This document shows, piece by piece, positions 10,756 to 52,071 of a stretch of 64,000 nucleotides of DNA. The position numbers and the translations under genes were made by a program. Positions within the stretch are counted from its first letter, which is position 1. Each line of letters opens with the position of its first letter. The stretch comes from Paractinoplanes rishiriensis (GTDB lineage Bacteria; Actinomycetota; Actinomycetes; Mycobacteriales; Micromonosporaceae), in the NCBI RefSeq assembly GCF_016862375.1, contig NZ_BOMV01000007.1:620001-684000 (forward strand), in the 5' to 3' direction. Below the pieces are notes generated by a model, which had not been told where the DNA came from, did no database searches, and worked only from the letters and a program-made list of their open reading frames with translations.

Positions 10756-11562
10756 ATGCCGCTGCTGGCGATGTGCTCGATCAAAGGCCCCGGCGTGACG
10801 ACGGCCGCCCTCGGGCTGGCCGCGGTCGCCGACGAGTCGGCGCGGGTAGTGCTGGTGGAGTGTGACCCGGCGGGCGGTGACCTGATGTTGCGGCACGGGT
10901 TAGCCGCGAAGCCGAACGTGGTCGATCTGGCCTCGGCGGCCCGGGCCAACGGAAGTGACTCGGCCGTGTACCGGACCGTGGTGCAGGCGCTGCACGTCGG
11001 GGACCGGGCCGTGGAGGTAGTGGTGGCACCGGCGGGTGGGGCGCAGAGCCGGGCAGCGCTGCCAGAGCTGACCCGCGCCGGGCAACTCGTGCTGAACCCG
11101 CCAGACCGTCTCGTGGTGGCCGACTGCGGACGGTTCGAGGCGCTGTCGGCGGCCAGGCCGATCCTGGCCCTCGCGGATGTGGTGGCCGTGGTGGTGCGGG
11201 CGACCGCCGATGCGCTGGCCCATCTGGAGGAACATCTCGGCGAGTTGCTCGACGTAGTGACCGGTCGTCTGCTGGTGCTACTGGCGCACGGCGGGATCTA
11301 CGACGAGACCGACGTCGCCGACGTGCTCGGCCGGTACGTGGCCGAGGAGCTGATGGGACCGGTGGACCAAATGGCGGTGCACGGCCCGCTGCCTGAGGAC
11401 CGGCGCGCGGCGGCGCTGCTGGGCGGTGGCCTCGTCGCGGGCCGCCGGTGGCGGCGGCTGCCGCTGCTGCGATCCCTCGACCGCATCGCGGGCGAACTGG
11501 CGCCGCTGCTGGCGATCGCCCCGCAAGGCGGCGCGGCCTCGCGGACGGACGTGCCAGGATGA
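10756..11562 (+). CDS. tadZ: TadZ/CpaE-like P-loop protein of the Tad locus
   Basis: 268-residue MinD/ParA-like protein; TadZ/CpaE homologues place the Tad machine at the right cell site. The deviant Walker A is KGPGVTT (in SIKGPGVTTAALGLA), where the usual second lysine-like GKT is altered, so ATP hydrolysis may be lost. VLVECDPAGGDLMLRHG is the switch region and LVVADCGRF the Walker B strand. It overlaps the TadA gene by 4 nt (ATGA). Assignment comes from motif order and operon position. Confidence 0.75.
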   Translation: MPLLAMCSIKGPGVTTAALGLAAVADESARVVLVECDPAGGDLMLRHGLAAKPNVVDLASAARANGSDSAVYRTVVQALHVGDRAVEVVVAPAGGAQSRAALPELTRAGQLVLNPPDRLVVADCGRFEALSAARPILALADVVAVVVRATADALAHLEEHLGELLDVVTGRLLVLLAHGGIYDETDVADVLGRYVAEELMGPVDQMAVHGPLPEDRRAAALLGGGLVAGRRWRRLPLLRSLDRIAGELAPLLAIAPQGGAASRTDVPG

Positions 11563-12998
11563 GCGCACCGTTCAACGCGTTGTCGGCAGCGCCGGTCAAC
11601 GGACATTGGCACCATGGCCGCCCAGTTGAGCGGGACCTCGGCCCGGATGTGGCGGTGGTCCGGCAGATCCGCCGTGAGGTCGCCGAGCGGCTGACCAAGG
11701 CCAGCCGGGTCCGCGAGGCCGCGACCAACACGCCGATGCCGACGGAGGAACGGGAGGCGTTGACGCGCCGGCTGATCAGCGAGGCCCTCGACGCCTACGC
11801 CACGGCAGAGATGCAGGCCGGTCGCCCGCCGCTACGCCCGCAGGTGGAGTCGCGGGTGGCGCGGACGGTCGCGGACACTCTGTTGGGCGCGGGCGGGTTG
11901 CAGCCCTGGCTGAACAACCCGGAGGTGGAGGAGATCGTCGCGAACGGCTGCGATCAGGTCTTCGTGCGCTTCTCCGACGCGCGCCACGAACGGGTGGAGC
12001 CGATCGCGGACTCCGACGCGGAGATGGTGGACCTGATCCGGATGTTGGCCGCTCGGACCGGCAACGACGAGCGCCGCTGGGACCGGGCCGCGCCGCTGTT
12101 GAACCTGCAGCTCGCCGACGGCAGCCGACTCAACGCCGTCCTCGACGTGGTCCGGCGCCCGTCGCTGTCAATCCGGCGGCACCGCTACCTGACAATGACC
12201 CTGCCCGAGCTGGTCGAGTTGGGTGCCATCGACACCGCGCTGTCCGAGCTGTTCGGCGCCGCCGTGCGGTCGCGGCTCAACACGATCGTGGGTGGCCCGA
12301 CCGGTGCCGGGAAAACCACGTTCCTGCGCGGACTGGCCTCGGCGATCCCGGCTCGCGAACGCCTGGTGACGATCGAGGACACCTACGAACTCGGCTTCGA
12401 CCACGACCGTGCTGCGCACCCGAACGTGGTCGCCATGCAGGCCCGTGACGCCAACGTGGAAGGCGAGGGCGCGGTGGACATGGCGGCGCTGTTCCGTAAC
12501 GCGCTGCGGATGGTGCCTTCGCGGGTGTTCGTCGGCGAGGTCCGGGGGCACGAGGTGGTGCCACTACTGAATGCCATGTCGCAGGGCAACGACGGCTCAA
12601 TGTCGACCATCCACGCCTCGTCGTCGGCCGGCGTGTTCCGCAAGCTGGTCCTCTACGCCGCCGCGGCCCCGGAGCGCCTCGACCCGGCCACGACGAACCT
12701 GCACATCGCCGAAGGGCTGCACCTGGTGGTGCAGTTGCGGCTCACCGACACCGGGCGCCGGTTCGTCACCAGTGTCCGGGAGGTCGTGGACGCCGACGGG
12801 TTGCAGGTCGCGTCCAACGAGATCTTCCGGCCCGGCCCGAACGAACACGCGGTCCCGGGAGCACCGCCGTCGACCGCACTCATGGACCGGCTGGCCTTCC
12901 ACGGCTTCGACCCCACCCTGTTGCAGCGCCGAGCGGGCTGGTGGGACAGCACCGGCCGCGCGGCCCGGACCGGTGACGGCGGGGGGTGGCCGCGATGA
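11559..12998 (+). CDS. tadA: TadA/CpaF-type secretion ATPase
   Basis: 479-residue cytosolic hexameric ATPase that powers Flp pilus assembly, type II/IV secretion family. Walker A GPTGAGKT is at residues 246-253, the Asp box is TIEDTYELG, Walker B is FVGEVRGHE, and the His box follows in SQGNDGSMSTIHA. The N-terminal domain carries the CpaF pattern NPEVEEIVANGCDQVFV. The ATG at 11559 overlaps the TadZ stop (ATGA). Length is normal for the family. Confidence 0.93.
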   Translation: MSAPFNALSAAPVNGHWHHGRPVERDLGPDVAVVRQIRREVAERLTKASRVREAATNTPMPTEEREALTRRLISEALDAYATAEMQAGRPPLRPQVESRVARTVADTLLGAGGLQPWLNNPEVEEIVANGCDQVFVRFSDARHERVEPIADSDAEMVDLIRMLAARTGNDERRWDRAAPLLNLQLADGSRLNAVLDVVRRPSLSIRRHRYLTMTLPELVELGAIDTALSELFGAAVRSRLNTIVGGPTGAGKTTFLRGLASAIPARERLVTIEDTYELGFDHDRAAHPNVVAMQARDANVEGEGAVDMAALFRNALRMVPSRVFVGEVRGHEVVPLLNAMSQGNDGSMSTIHASSSAGVFRKLVLYAAAAPERLDPATTNLHIAEGLHLVVQLRLTDTGRRFVTSVREVVDADGLQVASNEIFRPGPNEHAVPGAPPSTALMDRLAFHGFDPTLLQRRAGWWDSTGRAARTGDGGGWPR

Positions 12999-13897
12999 CG
13001 TTGACGGTGCCCCTGGCGGCGCTGCTGGGGCTGGGAACGGCGCTGGGGCTGGTGTTGGTCACCGTCGGGCTGACGGGCCGGGAGAATCCGCCGCCGGGAC
13101 TCGATGGCGAGGCGTCGTGGTGGTTGAGGCTGACCGCCGGTCGTGATCCGGTGGACCGGCGTCGGCTGGCACTGTGTGTGGCCGTCGGCGTTGTCGTGGC
13201 CGTGGTGACCCGCTGGCCGGTCGCAGCGCTGTTGTCCGCTGGGGCGGCGTGGGTGCTGCCGAACATCATCGGCCCGGACCGGGGTCACGCCCGCCGGGTC
13301 GCCCGGATCGAGGCCATCGCCACCTGGACCGAGGCGCTGCGTGACAACCTGTCCGGCGCGGCCGGATTGGAGCAGGCAATCGGGGCCAGCGCCATCGAGT
13401 CACCCGAGCCGATCCGCGAGGAGGTAACTCGGCTGGCGTTACGGCTGCAACGCGGCTGGCGGCTGCGCGACGCCCTGCGCGGGTTCGCCGCCGAGATGGC
13501 CGACCCGACCGCTGACCTCGTTGTGGCCGGGCTGGTGATCGCCGCGAAGGGCAGCGCCGGGCAGCTCGGCAACGTCCTGGGCGAACTGGCCCTCTTCGCG
13601 CGGGCGAAGGTCGCTTCCCGCCAACGGATCGCAGCCAGCCGAAAGAGCAACCGCACGTCGGCCCGAGTGGTGGTCGGCGCGACGTTGGCCATGGCAGCTG
13701 TGTTGTTGCTGATCAACCAGGGCTATCTGGCGCCGTTCGACACCGTCACTGGTCAGCTCATCCTGCTGTTCGGCGTCGGCGGATGCTTCGGGTTCGCGTT
13801 CTGGTGGCTGGCGCGATTGATGCGGGAGAAGGACACCAGCCGCGTGCTCGCCGCTGCCGCCGACGACCCGGCCGAGCGTCAGGCGGTGCCGTCATGA
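12995..13897 (+). CDS. tadB: TadB-like inner-membrane platform protein
   Basis: 300-residue type II secretion F-domain protein. Hydrophobic segments flank the cytoplasmic helical domain that carries WTEALRDNLSGAAGLEQAI and LVIAAKGSAGQLGNVLGELA, the T2SF hallmark; two transmembrane helices close the protein. TadB and TadC form the membrane platform on which TadA acts. ATGA overlap with tadA at 12995 and with tadC at 13894 indicates coupled translation; a GTG three codons upstream is possible. Confidence 0.88.
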   Translation: MTLTVPLAALLGLGTALGLVLVTVGLTGRENPPPGLDGEASWWLRLTAGRDPVDRRRLALCVAVGVVVAVVTRWPVAALLSAGAAWVLPNIIGPDRGHARRVARIEAIATWTEALRDNLSGAAGLEQAIGASAIESPEPIREEVTRLALRLQRGWRLRDALRGFAAEMADPTADLVVAGLVIAAKGSAGQLGNVLGELALFARAKVASRQRIAASRKSNRTSARVVVGATLAMAAVLLLINQGYLAPFDTVTGQLILLFGVGGCFGFAFWWLARLMREKDTSRVLAAAADDPAERQAVPS

Positions 13898-14787
13898 CCG
13901 GCCTCGTGTTGTTCGCCGGGCTCGGCACCGGCCTGGGTTTGTGGCTGATCGTCATCGGCTTGTTCCCGCGTCCACCTCGCCTGGACAAGATCCTCGACGC
14001 CCCTGCCGGGCTGACCCCGCTGGCCGACGACACCGAGCCGGTATCCGGGTGGACTGCCAGGTGGGGGCGTCCGGCGGTCCGGTTCCTGCGCCGCGTCGGC
14101 CTGCCGCTCGCCGCGACCCGCCGCGACCTGGCCACCGTCGACAAGCCCGTCGACGTGCACCTCGCCGAACAGGCCACGGCCGCGCTCGCCGGGGTGATCC
14201 TGCCTCCGGCCGCTGCGACCCTGCTCGCCTTCGGCGGTATCGCCACCGGCCTGGTCGTGCCGGTGGCCGCCTCGCTGATCCTCGGTGTAGCCGGGTTCCT
14301 CGCGCCCGAGCTCTCAGTACGCAGCGACGCGGCCAAGTACCGGGCGGCGTTCCGCGATGCCCTGTCGTCGTTTCTGGACCTCGTGGTCATCAGCCTCGCG
14401 TCCGGGGCCGGCGTGGATCAGGCCCTCGACGAGGCCGCCCAGGTCGGCTCCGGACCCGCGTACAGCGAGCTGAGCTACGCCCTGGCCGAAGCCCGGCTGG
14501 CCCGGGTACCGCCGTGGGACATCCTCGCCGTCCTCGGCCGCCGCGTCGCGGTGCCCGAGTTGCAGCAGCTCGCCGCCAGCGTCGGCCTTGCCGGGACCGA
14601 GGGCGCCCGAGTGCGTGCCTCGCTGCGATCCCGGTCAGTGTCGCTGCGCGACCGGCAACTCACCGAGGCCGAAGGCGAGGCCAACGCAGCCACCGAACGA
14701 ATGTCACTGCCGATCGTGACCCTGTTCGCCGGGTTCCTGATCTTCCTCGGATACCCCGCTGTCGCCGCCGTGCTGAGCGGCCTATGA
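13894..14787 (+). CDS. tadC: TadC-like inner-membrane platform protein
   Basis: 297-residue T2SF-domain membrane protein, partner of TadB. The F-domain part reads FLDLVVISLASGAGVDQALDEAA, then LRDRQLTEAEGEANAATERMSLP and a final helix PIVTLFAGFLIFLGYPAVAAVL, the standard TadC ending. The ATG at 13894 overlaps the tadB stop (ATGA). A 64-nt gap then separates it from the pilin gene. Confidence 0.88.
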   Translation: MTGLVLFAGLGTGLGLWLIVIGLFPRPPRLDKILDAPAGLTPLADDTEPVSGWTARWGRPAVRFLRRVGLPLAATRRDLATVDKPVDVHLAEQATAALAGVILPPAAATLLAFGGIATGLVVPVAASLILGVAGFLAPELSVRSDAAKYRAAFRDALSSFLDLVVISLASGAGVDQALDEAAQVGSGPAYSELSYALAEARLARVPPWDILAVLGRRVAVPELQQLAASVGLAGTEGARVRASLRSRSVSLRDRQLTEAEGEANAATERMSLPIVTLFAGFLIFLGYPAVAAVLSGL

Positions 14788-24139: not shown

Positions 24140-24652
24140 TCATCGCGGGTCGGTGGGGCCAGGGATCACCGGTGGCGGCCCGGGACGGGTGCTGGTGCTG
24201 GTGAAGGGCGCCGCCTCGGTGATGGCAGGCAGAGCGGCGTCGACCTTCGCGCCGACGCGGTCGAGGGCGACCGCACCGAGGGCGGTGAGGTGCGTGCCGA
24301 TGGTGAGGGCCTGCGCGGCTGTGAACGCGATCACTAGGGGTCGGGCGGTGGTGTCGCGGGCGTGTACCTCGATGTGACCACCGGTGGTCGGACGGACCGG
24401 CAGGAACGCCTCCGGGTGGGCGCCGTCGGGCAGCGCCTCACGGACGGTCGCGGCGAGGGCCTGGTATCCGGCCTGGACGGCCTGTTCCCAGTACTCGGCC
24501 TGGGCGACGAGGTGTTGGGCTTCGTTGTCGGTGGCGGCGTGCCCGGCGAGGACACGGTTGACCTCGCCTTTGGCATGGGCGTCGCAGAGTTGCCAGATCG
24601 CGGCGAGCATCGCCTCGGCGGTCGTGGTGGGGTTCACGGTGGGTGCCTCCAT
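24140..24652 (-). CDS. hypothetical protein, paralogue of the 23603 product
   Basis: 170-residue protein. The helical start (TTTAEAMLAAIWQLCDAHAKG) is followed by GGHIEVHARDTTARPLVIAFTAAQALTIGTHL, shared in outline with the 23603 protein and more loosely with the DUF6907-like protein at 20330. ATG at 24652 chosen as the first start after a long non-coding spacer. Function unknown; the repeated occurrence of this module suggests it has some general role in the element. Confidence 0.6.
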   Translation of the reverse strand: MEAPTVNPTTTAEAMLAAIWQLCDAHAKGEVNRVLAGHAATDNEAQHLVAQAEYWEQAVQAGYQALAATVREALPDGAHPEAFLPVRPTTGGHIEVHARDTTARPLVIAFTAAQALTIGTHLTALGAVALDRVGAKVDAALPAITEAAPFTSTSTRPGPPPVIPGPTDPR

Positions 24653-24827
24653 CGCGGTGGAGCCGGATGTGAAGTCGGGCGCCGGTGGCGCCGGTGCGGC
24701 CGGGCGCAGGCGCGGCGGCTTGCTAGCTGGGTGATCAGCGGCCGGGCCGGACGGGCGGCGGGGGCCGGTGGGCTGCGGCGGGCGGATCACTGGCCGTGTC
24801 GGGCGGGCGTCCGTCGTGGTGCCCGGC

Positions 24828-24855
24828 GGGGCCGCCGCCCGCCGGTGGCGGCCCC
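24828..24855 (-). terminator. hairpin downstream of DUF932 gene
   Basis: GGGGCCGCC (24828-24836) pairs with GGCGGCCCC (24847-24855) across a 10-nt loop, 16 nt past the DUF932 stop codon. The rest of the 24653-24870 spacer is GC-rich and shows no gene. Confidence 0.6.
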
Positions 24856-24870
24856 GGTACCGGGTGTGCA

Positions 24871-25857
24871 TCAGAGCGCGAACAGCTCGAACGCGCGGGC
24901 CTTCAGGTCCGCGCCTTTGCCCGTCAGTGCCCGCGTCGCGCGTACCGTGTCGCTGGTGGCGGGGGCGAAGTGGTCGAGGTATTCGGTGACGGCCTGGTAT
25001 CCGGCCCACCGGGTGCCTTTGATCGCCTTCTGCGTGTCCGCGTCCCGGATGAGGTAGCGCAGCGAACTGGTGCGCTGCTTCGCGTTGTTCTTCGCGATGT
25101 CGGAGGCGTCGTCGGCGATCGGCCAGAGCTGGGCGGTGATCTTTTCGAACTCGCCCATGGTCAGCGACTCGTTGATCATCTTCTCGGCTTCGGTCTCGAA
25201 CGCGGCGAAGTGTTTCCACACCAGGCCGAGGGCCTGACGGGCCTCGCCGATTTTCGCGGTGATCGTGGGGGCGTGCCGGAAGGTGTACGAGCCGAGCGAC
25301 CGCTCGTAGGCCATGCGCTGCGTGTTCGCGCACACGATCCGTACCGGGGTCGCGTCCAGGCGTAGCGAGGCGGTGCCGTCGTGGCTGGTCGTCGCGGCCA
25401 GATAGAGATCCATCCGGTCGACTCCGGCGATCTCCATCGCTTTCGGCAGCTTCATCGTAACGAAGACGCTCTTGCCTTTACGCATCGAGCCGGCCGTCTC
25501 GAAGTGCGCGCCGGACTCGTCAACGAGCAGGTTCAGCAACTCCGCGACCTGCTCGTTCTGCACGGTGGTGTAGTCCTCACCAACGACGCCGAGATACTCG
25601 GTCGCGCCGGTGACGGGGTTGGTCCGGACCGTCATGAACTTGTCGGGGCAGTCGACCTTCGTGACACCGGCGTCGGTGACCTCGATGCCCTGAAGGGCGA
25701 TCTTGCGGACCTCCCAACCACCGAGCCACGCCCTACTCATGACCTCTTCCGCGGTCATGCACTCGTCGGTGATCTGGCCGAGCTGATGCCACGCCGACTT
25801 GCGGGCGGAGGCGAATGCGGTCTGTCCGTTGGCGAGGGTTTCGAGTTCGTGTGCCAT
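24871..25857 (-). CDS. DUF932 domain protein
   Basis: 328-residue soluble protein covering the whole DUF932 family: WHQLGQITDECMTAEEVMSRAWLGGW at the start, YLGVVGEDYTTVQNEQVAELLN and CANTQRMAYE in the middle, and a helical end. DUF932 proteins are widespread in phages, plasmids and conjugative elements, where their role is unproven (a link to recombination or DNA exchange has been suggested). It heads the leftward accessory operon; the Tn7-like transposon is inserted 154 bp upstream of its start and may have separated it from its original upstream neighbour at 34.5 kb. Confidence 0.88.
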   Translation of the reverse strand: MAHELETLANGQTAFASARKSAWHQLGQITDECMTAEEVMSRAWLGGWEVRKIALQGIEVTDAGVTKVDCPDKFMTVRTNPVTGATEYLGVVGEDYTTVQNEQVAELLNLLVDESGAHFETAGSMRKGKSVFVTMKLPKAMEIAGVDRMDLYLAATTSHDGTASLRLDATPVRIVCANTQRMAYERSLGSYTFRHAPTITAKIGEARQALGLVWKHFAAFETEAEKMINESLTMGEFEKITAQLWPIADDASDIAKNNAKQRTSSLRYLIRDADTQKAIKGTRWAGYQAVTEYLDHFAPATSDTVRATRALTGKGADLKARAFELFAL

Positions 25858-26006
25858 GACTGGCGTGTCCTTTCATGCGGGGTTCGGTGGTGGTGGCGGC
25901 GACGCCGGGGTTTCGCGGCCCGGCGGCGCCGTCATAGGTAATGTTTCCTACCTCCACGGGCCGATCAAGGCGATCGGCTGGAGTCGATCGAGGTTTTTGG
26001 CGGCAA

Positions 26007-26011
26007 TCTGA
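26007..26011. repeat. left target-site duplication TCTGA
   Basis: The five bases TCTGA directly before the 5'-TGT terminus at 26012 recur directly after the ACA-3' terminus at 34510-34514. A 5-bp duplication is what Tn7-like transposases generate. Confidence 0.9.
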
Positions 26012-26057
26012 TGTGATTGCCAGCGATAGATGGCGGTTACCAGCGGTAGATGGCGGG
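26012..26057. repeat. transposon left end with tandem transposase-binding repeats L1 and L2
   Basis: Terminal 25-bp inverted repeat (26012-26036) containing L1, TTGCCAGCGATAGATGGCGG (26017-26036), followed at a 20-bp pitch by L2, TTACCAGCGGTAGATGGCGG (26037-26056). These differ at two positions and are the same sequence found in inverse orientation at the right end, so they are presumptive TniA/TnsB binding sites. Confidence 0.85.
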
Positions 26058-26103
26058 ACGGCGCTGCCGGCGTCTCGCCGGCTCTTGAGCCGAAGCACGG
26101 TAG

Positions 26104-26142
26104 TTGTCACGTAGGTAGGCTTGTTGTCACCTGCGTGTTCGG
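26104..26142. repeat. possible further left-end repeats L3 and L4
   Basis: TTGTCACGTAGGTAGG (from 26104) and TTGTCACCTGCGTG (from 26124) repeat with the same 20-bp pitch as L1/L2 and share TTG-x-CA with them. They are weaker matches and may be degenerate transposase sites or an operator for the Nudix gene. The stretch 26143-26279 shows no gene. Confidence 0.45.
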
Positions 26143-26279
26143 GGCCCAACATGTCGATCTTGAGAATGAGGAGGTCGGCGCGGTGGGTGAGGATGTTCTT
26201 GACGGCTCCGTGTTGAGCGAGGGCGCTTCGCGAGTCATCTGAAGAGCCCGACCAGCGCTCAGACCGCGGCCAGATCCGC

Positions 26280-26714
26280 ATGGGTCAGAATGTGCCGATG
26301 ACGATCTCCGCTGACGATTCCGGTCCGGTCCGGATTGTTACGGCCGTTCTTCGCGACGGCGATCGGGTGTTGCTGTGTCATCGAAGCGCCGGGCGCCGTT
26401 GGTATCCCGACGTGTGGGACCTGCCGGGCGGTCATGTTGACGAGGGGGAGGATCCGAAGGAAAGCCTTGTCCGCGAGCTTCGGGAAGAGTTGGGGATCAC
26501 GGCGCCGGAGCCGTCCAGCCCGCCGATGCATGAGATCCGGACCGCGACGTTCGACATGCAGATCTGGTTGGTCGACAGGTGGACCGGAATACCCGTCAAC
26601 GCCGCGCCGGACGAACACGACGCGGTGGCGTGGTTCGAGACGTCCGACCTTGACAGCCTGCGTCTCGCCCACGAGTCGTACCTTTCGATGCTTACCACCG
26701 TGCTCGCCACCTGA
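26280..26714 (+). CDS. Nudix hydrolase (transposon cargo)
   Basis: Small pyrophosphohydrolase of the MutT/Nudix family, about 138-144 residues. The Nudix box is complete: GHVDEGEDPKESLVRELREE followed by LGI, matching Gx5Ex7REUxEExGU, so metal-dependent hydrolysis of a nucleoside diphosphate-X substrate is expected. ATG at 26280 is used; a second ATG at 26298 is possible, and neither has a clear ribosome site, so a leaderless transcript is conceivable. It is convergent with tniQ and lies inside the transposon ends, hence cargo; the benefit to host or element is unknown. Confidence 0.88.
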   Translation: MGQNVPMTISADDSGPVRIVTAVLRDGDRVLLCHRSAGRRWYPDVWDLPGGHVDEGEDPKESLVRELREELGITAPEPSSPPMHEIRTATFDMQIWLVDRWTGIPVNAAPDEHDAVAWFETSDLDSLRLAHESYLSMLTTVLAT

Positions 26715-26891
26715 CGTCGCTCCGGGGCCTGGGGTGCGCGCTCATCGGCGATCCGGAGGCCGGCTGGCGTCCCATCCGCCTGCCCTCGTGCACTGCAGGT
26801 CACCCCGCCTCCGCGGTGTCAACTACCGCGCTTCGGCGCAGCTCTCTGCCGTCTCGTTGGCTGGCGGCTCCGATCGAGGACTCAGCTGGCG
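26715..26891. other. short convergent spacer without a gene
   Basis: 177 bp between the convergent Nudix and tniQ genes. I see no credible coding sequence and no strong terminator hairpin. Confidence 0.5.
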
Positions 26892-28798
26892 TTACTGGCG
26901 CGGCGACTGGGCGTTGTCGATGTGTTCGCCGAGTTGTCGGATGAATGGATCGAGGCGGTCGCGGAGTTGTCGGAAGTGGCCGTAGGGCGAGGGGCGCAGC
27001 AGGTGTTGCCAGCGGGTGTGGACGTAGTGGACGTCTTCGCCTCCGGGCCGGGTGGCGTGGAGGTCGGGGCGGACGGCGGGAGCGTAGATGTGATCGCCGT
27101 GAGTCAGTTCGGTCCAGGCCCAGGTGCTGGCCAGTCGGCGTTTTCCGTCGCCCCAGTGGGTGTGCGGCACGAGGCGGTTCTTGATCAGTTGGCCGGGCAG
27201 TCCGTCGATGAGTTCCTGCCATTGGCCGGGAGGGATCTCCCAGGTGCGCAGTGCGTCGCGACGTCGGCCGTGGTCGGTCAAGCCCGCAGTGGTGTCGAGG
27301 TGTTCGATGAGGTTGCCGACGGCGTGGTCGAACGCCTTGTGGCGGGAGGTGGCGGCCAGCGCCCGGTGGGTGACGCGTAGCGCGTTGTCGGCGGCGAGTC
27401 GAGGAATGCCGAGCTGGTTCGCGGCGTCGATGAGGGTTCCGCCGGTCGTGGCGTGCGCGAGCCGGATCACGAGGACGTGCTCCAGCAGCCGCGACTTGAG
27501 GTCGATGAACTCGTAGAGGTAGTTGAGCCAAGGTTCGGGCGGGCGCTGCGGGATGTGCTGGATGCCGAAGCGGACCCCCAACGGCGCAGGTAGGCGCCGA
27601 CGAGTGGAGTAGTGCGGGACGCCGGTGCGTTTGATGACGTGCAGCGCGCCGACTTCAGGACCGAGGGCGGCTTGCAGCCCTGGTGAGCAGTAGCCGTCGC
27701 CGGGTAGGAACTTCCTGACCCACGGGCGGGCGCCTGGCTGGTCCTCCAGTAGCGGAGCGACGATGTCGCGGGCCGAGTCGGGGCTGTCCGCGTCGGTGAT
27801 GTGTGCTGCCGCGGTGAGCAGCGCCGCGGCGGTGGCGGCGTCGGAGGGCGGCGCGTCGTAGAGGGCGTTGTCGCGCGGGTATCGCCGCTCGCGACGGTCT
27901 TGGTCGATCTGGCGTTGGACGTTCTCGGCGTGCCGGTCGATGAGGCCGGCCGCGTCCGTGGTGTCGACCAGATGCCGGCTGGTGGGCCAGGCGGCGGTGA
28001 TCAGGCAGGTGAGGATTCGCAGGTCAGTGACGTACTGGCTGGAGGTGGCCGGACCGCCGGCGCTGATCGTGGTCGCGTTGTCGGTGCTGAGCAGGGTCAG
28101 CAGCCGGTGTTGCAGGGCGATCGGTGCCGCAACGTCGTGGGTGCTGGTGGAGGCCGGTGCCTGGTCCAGCCGGTGACCGCAGGAGCCGCTGGCTGGTCGC
28201 GATCGGGGGGGTGGGCTCGGCAGGCGGCGGGGTGCAGTGTGCTGTCGCCTCCGCGCGGGATCATCGCCGCGCCGGGGCCGCGCGCCAGGGCGGGCTGCGC
28301 GCAGGCGGGGCAGGTGTGTGCGAGTAGCCGCTGGTGGGTGGGGCAGGCGAAGACGATCGGGAGGCGCCAGAGTTTATTCCAGCCGCCGCCGTGGTGTTGT
28401 TGGATGAGGCTGCCGTCCCCGGTCAGGCAGTGGGGGCAGTAGCGGGTGAAGCGGGCGAATACCCAGCTTTCGCGGACGAACAGGCCGTGCACGAGGCGCC
28501 GCTGGTCGCGGCCGGTGCGGGCGAGGTCGACCGGTGGGTAGCGAGTGGCGAGGCTGCTCAGGGTCAGGGCGGTGACCTCGGTGGTGCTGAGCCGGGTCGC
28601 GTGGGCGAAAGCGGCGGTCGTTTCAGGGGTCAGGGCGAGCATGGTGCTGGCTCGGGCGGCGTTGGGTGGTGTTGCGAGGCCGGTTGCCTGTTGCAGTCGG
28701 GTGGGTGCCAGTCCGAGGCGGTGGGAGAGCCGGAGTAGGTAGCCGGGCAGCGATTCGTCGGGCAGCGGGTCGAGGCTGCGCGGCAGGCGGCCGGTCAC
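26892..28798 (-). CDS. tniQ: TniQ/TnsD-like target-selection protein, -1 frameshift at C7 run
   Basis: Target-site selector of the transposon, about 635 residues if read through a -1 shift. The first frame (GTG 28798 to TGA 28097) has the TniQ start LPRSLDPLPDESLPGYLLRL and zinc-ligand pairs YCPHCL, ACPTHQRLL and TCPACAQP. The reading then moves -1 at seven C (plus-strand G 28205-28211) and continues as CGHRLDQ and ALQHRLLTLL, the expected TniQ continuation, to a stop at 26892. In the zero frame the run is phased C_CCC_CCC, a textbook slippery heptamer, so programmed frameshifting, mutation or a sequencing error are all possible. The GTG overlaps the tniB stop (GTGA). Without the shift a 233-residue N-terminal product would result. 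Confidence 0.85.
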
Positions 28799-30063
28799 GC
28801 GGTCGATGCCGTTGGCTGGTCGCCGCTGGTGCCGCCGTGGTCGTCGAAGACGGTGTTGCGGCGCTTGCTGCTCTTGCCGGTGGTCGGGGCCGGTCGTGGG
28901 GGGATGTCGGGGATCTCACCTGCGGTGGTGTCGCGGCGGGCCAGGTTGCCGAGGTTGATGTCGATGGTGTCGAGCAGATCGGTGGTCAGTTGCTCGGCGC
29001 CGGTGTCGATGGCGTGTGCGGCGCCGTCTTCGATGAGCCGTTCGAGGAGGCCGACGATGCCGCCGGTGCGGCGGAACAGGTATTCGGGCATGGCCCCGTC
29101 GGTGAGCATGCCCGGCTCGGCGCGCAGCAGCCGCAGGTTGTCCTCGATGCCGGCCAGGTGGGTGACCCACGCCGCGATGGTCTGCGGGGTGTCGTAGCGG
29201 AACGGGTCGAGGTCGATCAGGTCGAAGCGGCGTTCGGTCTGGGTGGCTGCTTCGTCGGTGAACGTGCGGGCGTGGCGGGGTTGGGCGAAGACGACCTGTC
29301 CGGTGGCCCGGTCCCGGCGGCCTTCGCGCAGCAGCCCGGAGGCGGGGATGCCGACGCCGACCAGGACCAGGGTCAGGTGCATGCTCATCAACGCGCGGAT
29401 CAGATCGAGGGCGTCCTGGTCGGCCTCGCGGTGCATCCGCAGCCGGGTGATGTCGTCCAGGATGAGGACCTTGGTGGCGTGGTCGTAGAGCGAGCCGCGC
29501 ACGGCGTGGACCAGTTGCGGCAGCGTCATGCCCTTGTGGAGTGCGCCGTAGAAGTCGAGGATCGCCTGGCAGACGCTTTTCGGGGTCGCGGTGACCGGCG
29601 TCTGCACGTAGGCGACGGCGGCGTGCAGGTCCCGGGTGCCGGGCACCGCGTGCGGGTTGATCTGCTGGTGCAGGTCCAGCCACTGGTCTTCGAACGCGGC
29701 GGCGATCTCGCAGACCGTCTCCGTCTTGCCCTGGTAGCCGCCGCCGTTGATCATGAGCCCGGCGCGGGTGGTCGGCTTGTGCTTGAGGGCGTTGTTGAAC
29801 AGCCGGGAGCCCATCACCCGGGCGACCCTGGCGCTCATCGGGGTCTCTTGAATGGGCAGGTTCGCGTGGGTCGCGGCCCGGTGCAGGTCGTGCAGGACCC
29901 GCTGTCGCGGACTCAACGTTCGCCACTGCGCCAGCGACAACCGCGGCGCCGGGGTGAAGCCGTGCCGGGTGGTCCGCCACTGGCTCCAGCCTGCGGCGGT
30001 CTCCCGGGCGATCGCCGGCCCAGGCAGCGTGAACGCCGCGGTGTCCGGCACTTCGCCGCTCAT
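28795..30063 (-). CDS. tniB: TniB/TnsC-like AAA+ transposition regulator
   Basis: 422-residue AAA+ ATPase that links target selector and transposase. Walker A GGGYQGKT is at residues 107-114, Walker B VLILDDITR has the acidic pair at 203-204, and VGVGIPASGLL plus the Arg-rich RRDRATGQ continue the fold. The N-terminal helical part (SPRQRVLHDLHRAATHANLPI) resembles the DNA-binding region of TniB. It overlaps tniA (ATGA at 30060-30063) and tniQ (GTGA), so the three products should be made in fixed ratio. Confidence 0.92.
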   Translation of the reverse strand: MSGEVPDTAAFTLPGPAIARETAAGWSQWRTTRHGFTPAPRLSLAQWRTLSPRQRVLHDLHRAATHANLPIQETPMSARVARVMGSRLFNNALKHKPTTRAGLMINGGGYQGKTETVCEIAAAFEDQWLDLHQQINPHAVPGTRDLHAAVAYVQTPVTATPKSVCQAILDFYGALHKGMTLPQLVHAVRGSLYDHATKVLILDDITRLRMHREADQDALDLIRALMSMHLTLVLVGVGIPASGLLREGRRDRATGQVVFAQPRHARTFTDEAATQTERRFDLIDLDPFRYDTPQTIAAWVTHLAGIEDNLRLLRAEPGMLTDGAMPEYLFRRTGGIVGLLERLIEDGAAHAIDTGAEQLTTDLLDTIDINLGNLARRDTTAGEIPDIPPRPAPTTGKSSKRRNTVFDDHGGTSGDQPTASTA

Positions 30064-32327
30064 CCGGCCTGCCCCGGCTCGTCCGGCTCGTCGGCGGGAA
30101 GCAGGAACAGGCTGCGCCGCCGGAACGCATCACCGAGACGCGGCGGAGGCTGCGGCCGGTCCGGCACCGCGGCCTCGCGGCGCCGTCGACGCTCGGCGTC
30201 CACCGCGGTCTGCACCTGCGCGACCCGGCCCACCGGACGCATCGGCACCACCGTCCCCACGTCCTGCCCGCACCCAGGCTCGGCCGCCGGAGGCGCCTCA
30301 GGGCGGTCGGCGTGCGCGGCTGCGGCCCGCGTCGCCTCCCGCGCGTGCTCGGTGCGGTGCCGTTTACCCGTCCCGGCTGGGCCGGCTTGAGTCGGCCACT
30401 GGTGTACTGGAGTTACGTCGCTGAGCAGGTCCAGCAGCAGCGGCAACAGCTCCGCGTCCGAGCGTGGTTTCAGGCCGGCCTGACGGGCGTGCTCGAGAAG
30501 CTGCCGGGCTCGGGCATCGGAGAACGACGGGATCTCGCCCTCGGCCGGCAGCCCGGTCCACCGCAACGTGTGCCACTGCCCGCCGCCGGGGTCGTGGAAG
30601 AACACGGTCCGCCGGTCGCGGGGATCGGAGCGCACGACCCACTTCCCTTTGTGGACGCCACCTCGCGTCGATGGCTCGTGGCGGTAGTCGTCCAGGCCCG
30701 GCCCGTCGTACCACAATCCGCGGATCTTCACCCCGCGTCGGCCGTGAACGCTGACGTGGTGGGCGGGTAGCAACTCGTAGTACAACTCCGGCGTGGGGAT
30801 CTGCAACGCGAACCCGCCCTGGGCCATCGCGGCGGCGAACAACGTGTTCGGGCTGTGCCGACCACCCGGATCCCAAGCCGGGGCGTACTCGCCCAACACC
30901 CGATTCTGCCAAATCTTCACCGACCAGGTCGCGACCAGGTGTTCCATCGCCTCGACCGTGAGCACCGCATCGGCCTCCGGGTCGACACCCCGGTCCGCGA
31001 CATCGACGCCCTGATAGCCCAGCAAATTCTCGAACAGCAGGCTCTGTATGGCGCCGAACGCCCGTTCCACGGCCTGCTTATCCGTCGGGCGCAGCACCCG
31101 AGCGGGGAGTATGTTCGCGCCGATGACCCGCTGCACTTCCACGAGATTGTGGTTTTTGTAGACCGAGCCGTGGTCGGTCGTGACGGTCTCCGGGGTGAAG
31201 AACGGCAACGCGGCCACCGGGTATCCCGCGAACTCGGCCACCACCGCGGCCGGCACTCCCGGGTAGGGCCAGATCATGTCCTCGCCCCACCCGTCGCGTA
31301 GCGGCAGTGGCGTCATCACGTCCCGCAGCAGCATCGCCACGTCCACCGACGTGTCCGACACCAAGGTCAGCCGGAACGCCACCAGCGAATGCGTGTACAC
31401 GTCCAACGCGATCGTTAAATGTGCCGATACCGGGTCGCCGAACACGCTCTCGCGGACCTTCACCGGCAGAATCGTGGTGTCCAACGCGATGACCTGCCCC
31501 GGCCTGTGCACCACCACATGGATCCCGGTGGCCTCGACCGCGGCAGCCGACCGCTGATAGCGCTGCCGGGCCCCGCCGGGACCGAACCATTCCCGCCACA
31601 CCTGCCGCAGCGTCTCGTAGCACGGCACCTGGACCTGCTCGTCGTACTTCTCCCGCACGTACTGGCAGACCAGCCGACGCCGCGCCATCATGCTGATCCG
31701 CGACCGGTGCAGCGTCTCGGCCCGCACCGCGAAGATCGCCTCGCGGACCGGTTCGGTGATGCTCGGCCGCCCACCGCTGCGGCGTACCCAACTGCCCAGG
31801 ATCGCCCCGGCGACCCCGAACCGGCGGCAGTCCGCACCCAGCCGCTCCAGCGTGCGCAGGCTGACGTGGGCGAACCCGAGCCGCCGCGCGTCCTGCGGAT
31901 CAAGTGCTTGGAGTTCGGCTACCTTCGCCAGCCGCCGCGCGGTCAACGTCGTGGCGTTCGGGTCGTAGCCACGTCTGGGCTCGCCCGGGGCCGGCCGCAA
32001 CGGATCCCCGCCACGGAAACCGGTCTCCACCTCCAGCACGTGTCCCAGCCGGACCAGCGCCAACTCCCGCTGATCCTGAGTCAGGTCGGCGAGCGTCATC
32101 GGTTGCCGGGTCGCCGAGTCCGTCCCCAGGATCAGCGCGTTCACCGGCGCGCGGTGTGCCGGGCCGGTCAGCAGGGCCCGCACCGTGGTCTGCATCGTCG
32201 TACCGTCACCACGGTGCAGCTGGATGTGCCCGTACTGCGGGGCGAACGACTCGACCAGCCACTCGACGCCATCGACCACGACGACGGCGCCGGGCGACAG
32301 GTCAAGCATGCCGACGTGCTGACTCAT
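30060..32327 (-). CDS. tniA: TniA/TnsB-like DDE transposase (Mu transposase C-terminal type)
   Basis: 755-residue retroviral-integrase-like transposase that joins the 3' ends to the target. The catalytic triad is intact: D283 in VIALDTTILP, D385 in VTTDHGS and E421 in DKQAVERAFG. N-terminal helix-turn-helix domains for end binding lie before residue 260, and the Mu-type C-terminal beta barrel around GRRGVKIRGLWYDGPGLDDYR. The ATG at 32327 overlaps the tnsA stop (ATGA); a longer reading to 32354 is disfavoured. Length is normal for TniA/TnsB. The C-terminal Arg/Pro-rich tail probably contacts TniB. Confidence 0.93.
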   Translation of the reverse strand: MSQHVGMLDLSPGAVVVVDGVEWLVESFAPQYGHIQLHRGDGTTMQTTVRALLTGPAHRAPVNALILGTDSATRQPMTLADLTQDQRELALVRLGHVLEVETGFRGGDPLRPAPGEPRRGYDPNATTLTARRLAKVAELQALDPQDARRLGFAHVSLRTLERLGADCRRFGVAGAILGSWVRRSGGRPSITEPVREAIFAVRAETLHRSRISMMARRRLVCQYVREKYDEQVQVPCYETLRQVWREWFGPGGARQRYQRSAAAVEATGIHVVVHRPGQVIALDTTILPVKVRESVFGDPVSAHLTIALDVYTHSLVAFRLTLVSDTSVDVAMLLRDVMTPLPLRDGWGEDMIWPYPGVPAAVVAEFAGYPVAALPFFTPETVTTDHGSVYKNHNLVEVQRVIGANILPARVLRPTDKQAVERAFGAIQSLLFENLLGYQGVDVADRGVDPEADAVLTVEAMEHLVATWSVKIWQNRVLGEYAPAWDPGGRHSPNTLFAAAMAQGGFALQIPTPELYYELLPAHHVSVHGRRGVKIRGLWYDGPGLDDYRHEPSTRGGVHKGKWVVRSDPRDRRTVFFHDPGGGQWHTLRWTGLPAEGEIPSFSDARARQLLEHARQAGLKPRSDAELLPLLLDLLSDVTPVHQWPTQAGPAGTGKRHRTEHAREATRAAAAHADRPEAPPAAEPGCGQDVGTVVPMRPVGRVAQVQTAVDAERRRRREAAVPDRPQPPPRLGDAFRRRSLFLLPADEPDEPGQAG

Positions 32328-33166
32328 CGGCCAACTCCGGCCAGTGAGGCCCACACCTTCGCGGCGTCATTCAGCGGGGCCGATAGGTCGATCCCGAGTC
32401 GCCGGTGCCAGATCAGGTGCAGGGCATGCGCTCGTGCCACCGCGGGTAGCCGGGTGGCCGCCACGAGATCGCCGAACGCTCGCGGACCTGACGCGACCGC
32501 CGTGAACAACTCCGACTGCAGGCCCAACGGGTCGCGCAGCGGGCGGCGCTGCGCGGAGAGCGTGTCCAGGCCGGTCTGCACGTGTGGCCGCCAGCCGGTG
32601 ACAACCAGATACGACCAGCCGGCCGCCAACGCCGCTTCCCGCGCTGCGGCGAAGCACACCCGGTCGTCGTCGCCGATCCGCTCACCCGGCCGCACATCGA
32701 TCAACAAGCCACCTTCGGCCGTCACCGCCAGGAAGTCCGGGATGTGCTCCCGCCAACCCGACCCGGTCGCGAACCGTAACCGGAACGGCTGGCCCAACAC
32801 GTCGCTCACGCCGCCCGCGAAGTCCAACGCCAGCAGCAGCCGTTGCTCGGCGATGCTCTCGAAACCGTGGTGACGGCCGGTCGACACCATGAACTGCAAG
32901 CCCGGACGGTGCCGCTGTCCCCGACGCCAGGAGAACCGCCGCACCGGCTCGCACCGTGATATCGGCATCGACGCCAAGTCGCGCACCGCGCAGAGCACCG
33001 GGGCGCCCGACGCCCGCCACTGCGCCCGCCACCTTCCGGTCCACCCATCCGCCAGAACCAGCGATCCCCGTGCCCTGTCGAAGCCGACCCACTGCGTGCA
33101 CAGACCCGCCAGCCCGCACCGGTCGGACCAGAGTTCACCACAGCTGGCCGTAACGCCCGACGACAT
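32324..33166 (-). CDS. tnsA: TnsA-like endonuclease subunit
   Basis: 280-residue restriction-like endonuclease that would cut the 5' ends of the transposon. The core reads FESIAEQRLLLALD (acidic residue E107), VLGQPFRLRF, HIPDFLAV (D144) and LLIDVRPGERI (D157, R159). In Tn7 TnsA the last position is lysine, so R159 is a substitution that many might regard as inactivating, although I believe related actinobacterial TnsA-like proteins share it. An extra N-terminal region of about 95 residues precedes the nuclease fold. ATG 33166 chosen; a TTG at 33181 is in frame. First gene of the core operon. Confidence 0.85.
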   Translation of the reverse strand: MSSGVTASCGELWSDRCGLAGLCTQWVGFDRARGSLVLADGWTGRWRAQWRASGAPVLCAVRDLASMPISRCEPVRRFSWRRGQRHRPGLQFMVSTGRHHGFESIAEQRLLLALDFAGGVSDVLGQPFRLRFATGSGWREHIPDFLAVTAEGGLLIDVRPGERIGDDDRVCFAAAREAALAAGWSYLVVTGWRPHVQTGLDTLSAQRRPLRDPLGLQSELFTAVASGPRAFGDLVAATRLPAVARAHALHLIWHRRLGIDLSAPLNDAAKVWASLAGVGR

Positions 33167-33471
33167 CCATCCATCCAACAAGACTGATGTCTACCCGAGC
33201 CGAGGTTTCCGATTCGCGTTGCTTTGCGGCGAGTCGAACAGCGCAACGGGCGCTATCGTGCCCTTCGCGCTGAGTAACTTTTGTGTAACGGTGGATTCCA
33301 TCTCGGCTGGCGCACTTGAGTTTGCGCTCATGTCTGGAAACGGATACGAGATCTCTGCCGGCGGCAGTGTCTCAAGGCAACGGTCTCCACCGTATGGGCG
33401 ATCAGCGAAGCCGCATCCCGCCCGGGGCTCGCCCATGATCCACGCACTTGGGGCCACTATGGCGATCGGCT
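33167..33471. promoter_or_regulatory. promoter region of the transposition operon
   Basis: About 305 bp between the unknown cargo gene and tnsA, AT-richer than its flanks (for example TAACTTTTGTGTAACGG at 33274-33290). No gene is supported. It must hold the promoter of tnsA-tniA-tniB-tniQ and possibly a TniA-dependent operator; no copies of the end repeats were found here. Confidence 0.5.
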
Positions 33472-34269
33472 CTACAGGCTTCCTATGGAAGCTCCCGGCG
33501 GGTCTTGCTGGTCGAGGTCCGGCGGCGGCTGGGTTAAGTCAGGTGGCACGGGAGTACGTGGCGCACCCTCGACTGAAGCCGCCGGTGTCGTCGATCGAGT
33601 TTCGCGGTCGCCAAGCGCAACGCTCTCGACTGGCGCGGAACCCCTCGTCACCTCATCTGCGCGTTTAGTCAGCAGCGACGGCGGCGAACCGGCCGTAGAA
33701 GATCCTGCCGGAGGTTGCTCCGACTCCCGTTTCGGCGAAACGGATCCGTGAGATTGAAGACTGAGCCGCCGCCGGCCAACCCTGGCCTCCGGCGCGGCTG
33801 GCCTCTGCCCCGCAGCCGACTGGGAGATCCGACGCTGACGGAGATGGCCGACCATCTCCGTCAGAGCGGAAGCGATCATCGTGCCGACGAACGCCTTCAC
33901 CGTCTCCTTGACCAGCGATTCACCGACAACCGCCGCCGCGATCGGGGCGGCACCGGTCACCGCGAGGACGACGGCCCCAACTGTAACAGCGGCACCGAGC
34001 ACCGTGTCGGGGTCGACCCATGCGGAAACCGGGTCATGGCGGTAGGAATGCTCAAGCCAACTCAGCTCTTCGTCGACGTCGGACGATGCAATGTCCGATG
34101 CATGAGCGGCAGCGCGGAGGAGATCTACCGCGGCAAGGCCACGCATCCTGAACAACTCTTCGCGATCCCGTCGCTCACCGGTGTACCGCAAAGCCTCGTC
34201 GTACGCGTGCAGCCGGGCTTGCTGGAGTCGTACTTCAGCGAAGGCATCCGCCTCGTCTTCGTCGGCCAT
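33472..34269 (-). CDS. unknown cargo protein with hydrophobic centre
   Basis: 265-residue protein with no recognised family. An acidic helical N-terminal half (ADAFAEVRLQQARLHAYDEALR; two further helices to about residue 80), a central hydrophobic stretch (TVLGAAVTVGAVVLAVTGAAPIAAAVVGESLVKETVKAFVG, about 92-132, written in parts: VLGAAVTVGAVVLAVTG then IAAAVVG) and a long Ser/Pro-rich disordered tail. It sits between the tnsA promoter and the right end of the transposon, where Tn7 relatives usually have no gene. It may be cargo (for example a defence or addiction membrane protein) or a transposition accessory. ATG 34269 selected; upstream extension to 34491 would run through the end repeats and is unlikely. 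Confidence 0.6.
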   Translation of the reverse strand: MADEDEADAFAEVRLQQARLHAYDEALRYTGERRDREELFRMRGLAAVDLLRAAAHASDIASSDVDEELSWLEHSYRHDPVSAWVDPDTVLGAAVTVGAVVLAVTGAAPIAAAVVGESLVKETVKAFVGTMIASALTEMVGHLRQRRISQSAAGQRPAAPEARVGRRRLSLQSHGSVSPKRESEQPPAGSSTAGSPPSLLTKRADEVTRGSAPVESVALGDRETRSTTPAASVEGAPRTPVPPDLTQPPPDLDQQDPPGASIGSL

Positions 34270-34373
34270 GAAGCAATTGTGGTAACCGTGTGCAACTCTG
34301 CGCCAACTGCGCCCCCGTTGTGCCCACTCCTGGCCGCCGCCCGGCGGAGCCGGGTCGCCCGTCACCTCTGCCT

Positions 34374-34509
34374 CACCCGCCACCACAGGCTGGGACTTCC
34401 GGCGGCCCCGCCAACCACGTCTAGTAAGCCCCGCCAAACGTCGCTGGCAACCGGAGCCTATCTCCCTGGGCATCAGGCACTTCCCCGCCATCTATCGCTG
34501 GCAGTCACA
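34374..34509. repeat. transposon right end with four transposase-binding repeats R1-R4
   Basis: Read inward on the minus strand: R1 TGCCAGCGATAGATGGCGG in the terminal repeat (34485-34503), R2 TGCCAGCGACGTTTGGCGGG (34429-34449), R3 ending TTGGCGGGG (34406-34426) and R4 TCCCAGCCTGTGGTGGCGGG (34375-34394). R2 and R3 abut at 23 bp and R4 is about 31 bp further. All share the CCAGC...TGGCGGG frame. The denser right end versus the left resembles Tn7 asymmetry. Confidence 0.78.
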
Positions 34510-34514
34510 TCTGA
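34510..34514. repeat. right target-site duplication TCTGA
   Basis: Second copy of the 5-bp duplication, immediately outside the ACA-3' terminus at 34507-34509. Joining the two flanks gives the empty site GGCGGCAA-TCTGA-CGCCC. Confidence 0.9.
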
Positions 34515-51660: not shown

Positions 51661-52071
51661 ATGCAAGTCACCATCAATCGCGACGACACCGGACGATTGA
51701 CCGCCCACGCCGCGCCCGCCGCGCCGCACAACACGGCCGGGGTCACGGTCCGGCTCTGCCCGCCGGACGCCTGCGAACGGTGGTCCGGCACCCTCGCCCA
51801 CCCGCATCAGTACGCCTACGCCAGCGCCGAGCTTGCCGCTATACCCGCACAGCCGCCACGCGACGAGACGGTGGCTGACCTCAACGCACCCACCGTCATC
51901 GTGGCCATCCATCCTCGCTGCCGACAAACCCTCGCCGTCGACCCGTTCACCGGACCCGACCGCGCCCGTCAGTGGTGGCAAGCCACCCCCAACCGGTTCG
52001 CTGCCAGCGGCGCCACCTGCCACGTTCTTCCGCTGTCCGAGCCTGACTGCCAGGAAGGAGGACTTCGATGA
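51661..52071 (+). CDS. hypothetical protein upstream of integrase
   Basis: 136-residue protein, beta-rich at the start (MQVTINRDDTGRLTAHAAPA) with one Cys pair later (LCPPDAC). No recognised domain. Its stop overlaps the integrase ATG (ATGA at 52068-52071), so the two genes are coupled; it could be an excision or directionality partner, but nothing in the sequence proves that. Confidence 0.6.
   Translation: MQVTINRDDTGRLTAHAAPAAPHNTAGVTVRLCPPDACERWSGTLAHPHQYAYASAELAAIPAQPPRDETVADLNAPTVIVAIHPRCRQTLAVDPFTGPDRARQWWQATPNRFAASGATCHVLPLSEPDCQEGGLR

Follow-up and report, generated by a model that had tools for sequence, protein, structure and literature searches.

The 64,000 nucleotides of the Paractinoplanes rishiriensis contig NZ_BOMV01000007.1 analysed here (positions 620,001 to 684,000 of the forward strand, hereafter the window) can be said with high confidence to hold an autonomous-type actinomycete Tn7-like transposon of 8,498 bp (26012..34509) that has entered a conjugative element between two of its genes; within the transposon a transposase-less mini-element of 755 bp (26086..26840) carrying a NUDIX hydrolase gene was later nested. 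Boundaries, duplications, the empty target, the gene set, the conserved architecture of the ends and the order of nesting can all be read from the DNA itself. The outer element is taken to add one more member to a widespread branch of a family already known, and not to be a new kind of system.

Boundaries and empty target of the outer element

The outer element is delimited by its inverted ends, by its target-site duplication and by empty sites in genomes of the same genus. The terminal inverted repeats (26012-26036 and 34485-34509, 25 bp each) start with TGT and match at 24 of 25 positions, and they are flanked by an exact 5-bp duplication, TCTGA, at 26007-26011 and 34510-34514, so that the one-mismatch ends and the perfect duplication described in an earlier note on this DNA were both found again. 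In a search around the operon the outer-end pair was the only one with an exact 5-bp duplication among six of the seven TGT/ACA pairs, and it had one mismatch versus five in the next best pair. A weight matrix trained on the ends of 25 relatives, with the window excluded, gave scores of 30.0 and 24.6 for the outer ends, the maxima of five shuffled 64-kb sequences being 6.9-11.7. Only four sites of the 64 kb exceeded a score of 12, namely the two outer ends and the two ends of the mini-element (26.6 and 20.5). The repeats claimed at both ends are likewise present, as putative transposase-binding sites at offsets 0 and 20 of the tniQ-side end (26012..26056, plus strand) and at offsets 0, 54, 77, 108 and 126 of the tnsA-side end (34370..34509, minus strand). 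Elsewhere in the genome the end box was not found above chance: all three exact matches lie at the outer element, and 14 further places with one or two mismatches bring the total to 17, versus 16 for a reversed-pattern control.

The insertion lies between a DUF932 gene and an open reading frame (ORF) of 192 aa. The earlier note had proposed to look for the empty site in related genomes, and this was done by searching 67 same-genus genomes with the left flank (window 24600-26011) and by comparing the non-self loci with the joined flanks. In eleven of the 13 loci the alignment runs straight through the junction, the element being absent, and seven of these 11 have TCTGA itself; of the other two, one ends at the junction (the locus stops approximately 190 bases beyond) and one has the left flank only. 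The best empty site (L122) has a left flank 93% identical to that of the window, and its junction reads GGCGGCAATCTGACGG. The outer element is scarce, with DNA matches at E<=1e-50 in two of 397 genomes of the order besides the window.

The nested mini-element

The mini-element has inverted ends matching at 22 of 25 positions, its own duplication GCTCT on both sides, no transposase and, as sole cargo, a NUDIX hydrolase gene (26280..26714, plus strand; PF00293, E=8.8e-22). Paired ends, a 5-bp duplication and the lack of a transposase are the features of a non-autonomous Tn7-like element; full arrays at both ends are absent, in that the left end has sites at 0 and 20 and the right end a terminal site and a weak one at 128. 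The left end matches both ends of an element on a Streptomyces nojiriensis plasmid (L026) at 24 of 25 positions, and its 0/20 pair is like that of the L026 tniQ side. A cargo shared with L026 was considered and dropped, the NUDIX proteins being only 32% identical over 107 columns. The NUDIX gene also matched PADLOC candidate defence model PDC-S07 (E=2.9e-21), which may reflect the NUDIX fold alone.

The distance between the tniQ stop and the end of the outer element, 880 bp, falls to 120 bp when the mini-element and its duplication are subtracted; among 11 relatives it is 21-130 bp in seven and 476-1,737 bp in four with more cargo.

The mini-element is single-copy in its own genome. Among the 67 genomes from this genus, three have ends of its TGAGCC type (none in the control), and in one of these a sister element of 2,702 bp (L165:1753-4454; G013:C77) has TGAGCC ends, the duplication TGCGC and no transposase-like match to the query used. 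The end bases of the two agree at 93% over 46 and at 91% over 43 positions. Judged by eye, the ORFs of the sister element are membrane protein-like and alpha/beta hydrolase-like. Unpaired TGAGCC-type ends were seen on two further contigs (L166 and L167; G005:C16 and C49), one of which also has a homologue of the target flank of the window.

The operon and its products

As claimed before, the core operon is tnsA-tniA-tniB-tniQ, read from the ORFs on the minus strand with neighbouring genes overlapping by four bases. TnsA, the predicted endonuclease subunit (32324..33181; NCBIfam NF033179, E=3.6e-44), gave an AlphaFold 2 model with a predicted local distance difference test score of 87, the nearest solved structures being those of Tn7 TnsA (1f1z/1t0f) and 9bw1; a TnsA profile found no match among Protein Data Bank (PDB) sequences.

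The DDE transposase TniA (TnsB; 30060..32327) has actinomycete plasmid homologues of 55-62% identity among its best full matches, and matched Pfam rve below the cut-off only. A ten-sequence TniA profile found the TnsB of ShCAST in the PDB (E=2.4e-18) and, more weakly, that of Tn6677 (1e-6). The gene may start with the ATG at 32327 or with a GTG at 32354, 27 bases upstream; the catalytic triad reported as intact, D283/D385/E421, is counted from the ATG, corresponds to D292/D394/E430 from the GTG and occupies conserved columns (D292 and E430 in 10 of 10 aligned TniA, D394 in nine). The exception at D394 is L028 (tniA at 12259-14247), a plasmid element whose ends match at 25 of 25 positions and whose TniA is without four residues, including the second catalytic aspartate.

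The AAA+ ATPase TniB (TnsC; 28795..30063) matches PF05621 TniB and PF13401 AAA_22 above cut-off, and the Walker motifs said to be intact are present as GGGYQGKT and VLILDD. A cargo ORF of 265 aa (33472..34269, minus strand) has two homologues of 56% identity besides itself; its longer version had no Pfam or NCBIfam match, and PADLOC gave none for it. No resolvase was found among the element ORFs in Pfam and NCBIfam scans, and no TnsE in the ORFs scanned with the same two collections, which a distant TnsE could escape. No cas genes were found by Pfam and NCBIfam in seven ORFs, no search aimed at CRISPR arrays having been made. PADLOC run on six proteins of the element returned only TniQ models besides the one NUDIX model.

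Relatives and conserved architecture of the ends

TniA matched 327 plasmid records, 11 of them covering at least 80% of the query, and three mycobacterial prophage records at approximately 29% identity. Single-sequence TniA searches of genome and viral contigs gave 11 and three pattern matches, respectively, and no relative. A search with an alignment of TniA gave 121 genome loci, the best 80 of which were joined with 12 plasmid loci to give 92, of which 89 were long enough to be tested for ends and three too short. Paired TG ends that differ at no more than five of 25 positions and are flanked by an exact 5-bp duplication were found in 22 of the 89, compared with one in three shifted-duplication controls taken together. 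Three loci with six mismatches and both ends starting TGTGAC (L027, L034 and L086) bring the accepted elements to 25. Their ends start TG(T/A/C)G, with the consensus TGTGACTgngagCGaTAGTTGgCaC. A tnsA-side end scored above 15 in 61 of the 92 loci; with the orientation reversed as a control this was so in 5 of 92. Of these loci, 25 had served to train the matrix. Direct evidence of mobility within the family comes from a Nocardia strain, in which two copies lie at separate sites with the duplications TCCGG and ACAAG.

For the site arrays, each end of 26 elements was scanned with its own terminal box, the internal positions having played no part in the choice of the elements. On the tnsA side, 17 of 26 elements have a site at 53-55 and 17 of 26 have one at 76-78; on the tniQ side, 16 of 26 have one at 20. 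When interior segments were scanned with the terminal boxes as a control, 34 of 52 had no site, 17 had one and one had two. An asymmetric array of binding sites at fixed spacing is common to most relatives with ends, and the window has it too. With respect to the operon, the two types of array have changed places in L029, L080, L087 and L102, which together with L056, whose array is ambiguous (0 and 20 on both sides), form one clade (98/96). Three arrays (L098, L109 and L110) fit neither type well, and four elements (L030, L041, L086 and L093) are each without one expected inner site. It is the general pattern that is conserved and not the box itself, the box of the window having just two 3-mismatch matches in 13 relatives. 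The earlier note had named ends not conserved in homologous elements as grounds for giving up its proposal; paired ends and conserved arrays were found instead.

In the TniA tree the window lies inside a clade of 22 actinomycete rows with support of 100/100. Rows L002, L003 and L009, whose ORF is probably not the TniA frame, and a long Paenarthrobacter row were left out; Tn7 TnsB and the Tn402 pair form long branches, so that the deep order is unsure.

Target preference and an apparent attachment site

A target consensus over 26 insertions reached a top information of 0.44, which is the 95% level of shuffled sets, so that there is no general motif. Eight relatives (L041, L045, L050, L052, L079, L086, L093 and L104) do share a tniQ-side flank, in which 27-29 bp separate the end from a TTGCAAGC-N5-GCTTGCAA palindrome (degraded in L041), upstream of a conserved helix-turn-helix (HTH)-type gene that starts MASLNVGNLGEYL and whose product is below all NCBIfam cut-offs. 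The motif is also present in L049 and L089, and L044 has it at a contig edge. From its sequence, this appears to serve some of the family as an attachment site. The TniA proteins of the eight are 59-99% identical to one another; some, such as L041 and L086 at 99%, may go back to one ancestral insertion, and the pairs at 59-68% argue for several insertions. The element of the window is not at this site.

A second TniQ ORF, which recalls dual target selectors, was noticed in L045, L049 and L104, and a rough criterion that includes broken genes adds 14 other loci.

State of the element and alternative readings

The tniQ gene is divided over two frames as sequenced. The N-terminal part, with the TniQ domain, is found at 28097..28798 on the minus strand, to the break and on to the first stop (PF06527, E=2.2e-23); the C-terminal part lies in a different frame at 26892..28193, also on the minus strand, and is 27.6-32.5% identical to residues 203-636 of the TniQ of relatives. 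The two parts, the first reaching approximately residue 195, make up the two halves of the continuous TniQ of relatives, and their alignment places the loss of frame at a run of seven G (C7 on the coding strand) at 28205-28211. The ends, the duplication and the gene set of the transposon that had been called complete thus stand, whereas its completeness is unproven because of this break, and the nested element had been overlooked. Mutation, assembly error and programmed shifting would all fit the break; the first two are likelier since tniQ is a single open frame in four compared relatives (L053, L090, L098 and L114), in which it exceeds 600 codons with no shift.

The broken tniQ is one of several points that weigh against an autonomous-type element carrying a mobile passenger. 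The genome holds no second copy, other TniA matches in it being 30-33% identical. Sixty-four of the 89 testable relatives are without an accepted end pair within the span searched, among them L025, L031, L032, L033, L035, L036 and most genome loci. The right end of the mini-element, unlike that of its sister L165, is without internal sites at 55/78, and for this reason the mini-element may have lost its own mobility. Finally, cut-and-paste transposition is not certain, because TnsA is without the canonical lysine.

A substantial, although doubtful, possibility is that the outer element is a decayed, immobile fossil insertion whose tniQ frame was lost by mutation. The position of the break at a homopolymer, the lack of a second similar copy in the genome and a nested insertion close to one end are as such a fossil would have them; on the other hand the ends still match at 24 of 25 positions, the duplication has no mismatch, and tnsA, tniA and tniB each have an open frame. 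The break itself may be an artefact, as homopolymer errors are common in draft assemblies. As sequenced, the current copy may be unable to choose targets alone, because tniQ is frame-broken.

The missing lysine bears on the mode of transposition. At residue 164 of TnsA (window 32690-32700 region) an arginine takes the place of the lysine of the PD-(D/E)XK motif, as it does in 203 of 212 aligned TnsA, a set that leans to close relatives (91 loci, the best 120 of 1,515 database matches and the window). The correspondence between the two residues rests on the alignment with Tn7 TnsA, on the match with Rhodococcus TnsA and on the fold; the profile alignment of the window TnsA with Tn7 TnsA is weak (probability 6%), versus 98.8% with Rhodococcus TnsA. 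A widespread arginine could mean that TnsA no longer cuts and that transposition is replicative, through cointegrates. This is unlikely, considering that the rest of the active site is nearly always kept (E112 in 212, D149 in 210 and D162 in 206 of 212), that tnsA stays beside tniA in 91 of 92 loci and that scans of the element ORFs gave no resolvase.

Programmed -1 frameshifting at the C7 run, by which a short and a long TniQ would be made, is very unlikely: the heptamer C_CCC_CCC is in the correct register for the -1 shift required, and both parts align to one continuous TniQ of relatives, but the four relatives named above manage more than 600 open codons with no shift. Hardly credible is the idea that the NUDIX segment is part of the end of the outer transposon and its repeats extra TniA sites. 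The segment does have motifs of the general family TAG-TTG-CAC and adjoins the outer end; yet it has its own GCTCT duplication, its ends resemble those of another subfamily (L026) rather than the outer ones, and elsewhere there is a sister with a duplication of its own.

The surrounding conjugative element

The genes around the transposon match T2SSE, T2SSF, DUF2637, DUF932, a MarR-type regulator and Replic_Relax, as well as TrwB_AAD_bind (coupling protein-like), TraG/VirB4-like/AAA_10, PrgI and T4SS_pilin, and would fit an integrative conjugative element. The description of a Tn7-like element inside a conjugative element thus holds, with a TnsA fold, a DDE transposase, an AAA+ TniB and a TniQ domain among conjugation genes. 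No tRNA genes were found in the 64-kb window. A large serine recombinase to the right of the transposon (52068-54410) is likely the integrase of the surrounding element, and the adjoining T2SSE and T2SSF genes at 11448-14787 resemble a Tad-type or secretion cluster that either belongs to this element or lies next to it.

Relation to known systems

TnsA next to TniA, TniB and TniQ on a Gram-positive mobile element had been regarded as not well described. This cannot be maintained, given that an NCBIfam model for such proteins exists (NF033179, TnsA_like_Actin), that TnsA adjoins TniA in 91 of the 92 loci and that both an actinobacterial clade (PMC8649781) and the transposon Tn7706 (PMC12915292) are reported. 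Benler 2021 describes a Tn7-like clade dominated by Actinobacteria (the 'second clade'), none of whose members, according to that paper, had been experimentally characterised (PMC8649781). As tnsD/tniQ is treated there as a single selector gene, the contrast between TnsABCD and TniA/B/Q is largely one of naming. According to the same paper, the clade shares with the window element actinomycete hosts, a TnsB/TnsC/TniQ core and arrays of TnsB sites at the ends, and differs in that tyrosine resolvases are prevalent and some branches are without tnsA, whereas the window element has tnsA and no resolvase was found in it (PMC8649781). From the host and the present tree, we infer that the window element belongs to this clade.

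Rhodococcus Tn7706 has tnsA, tnsB, tniQ and tniB with inverted and direct repeats, like the window element, and has spread over plasmids (PMC12915292); it differs in its size of 19.4 kb and in its transposase, which is approximately 31% identical (H25, a carrier plasmid named in PMC12915292) and falls in a sister group in the tree. The S. nojiriensis element L026 (plasmid NZ_CP107888, 8,119 bp) has the same operon, ends matching at 25 of 25 positions and the duplication GTCGA; its TniA is approximately 60% identical, and its ends read TGAGCCGAAGCAC versus TGTGAYTGCCAGC in the outer element. With Tn7 (TnsABCD+E; plasmid R721 copy) are shared the TnsA fold, the DDE transposase, the 5-bp stagger and asymmetric site arrays. 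In contrast to Tn7, the TnsA motif of the window is DVR instead of QVK, TnsE was not found, the transposase is distant in the tree (on a long branch), and the target lies in a conjugative element and not downstream of glmS (attTn7). TniA, TniB and TniQ are also found in Tn402/Tn5053 (plasmid R751 copy); in Tn402 a resolvase adjoins TniQ and no TnsA is annotated, the reverse of what was found in the window element. Among the titles and abstract beginnings returned by searches of one open-access library, none dealt with the attachment site, the arginine motif or the mini-elements, which does not prove that they are absent from the literature.

Proposed history and significance

For the autonomous-type transposon with its nested passenger, the biochemical steps, trans-mobilisation and any present-day activity are what we infer. 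By analogy with Tn7, TniA would bind and pair both end arrays and join the 3' ends to the two target strands at positions 5 bp apart, TnsA would be expected to cut the 5' strands for cut-and-paste transposition, and TniB would couple transposition to TniQ, which would select the target. Later, the 755-bp mini-element, of another subfamily, landed 74 bp inside the tniQ-side end, leaving both end sites intact; having no transposase, it would have had to move in trans.

It is tentatively proposed that the window holds two interacting members of an actinomycete-wide Tn7-like family, namely autonomous elements in which TnsA works with the arginine, and mini-elements from a sister subfamily, without a transposase, which are moved in trans and insert into the former. 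TniQ would give this family two lifestyles. One would be insertion at a fixed site of the streptomycete chromosome, at 27-29 bp from the TTGCAAGC palindrome that lies upstream of the HTH regulator gene; the other, as in the window, would be scattered insertion into plasmids and conjugative elements. The Lys-to-Arg change raises the question of whether a PD-(D/E)XR TnsA still permits cut-and-paste transposition. The nested mini-element and its sister point to movement of cargo genes within the genus by derivatives that have no transposase. The boundaries, site arrays, empty targets and apparent attachment site now specify the ends, the four proteins and the target for a direct test of a clade described as uncharacterised in PMC8649781.

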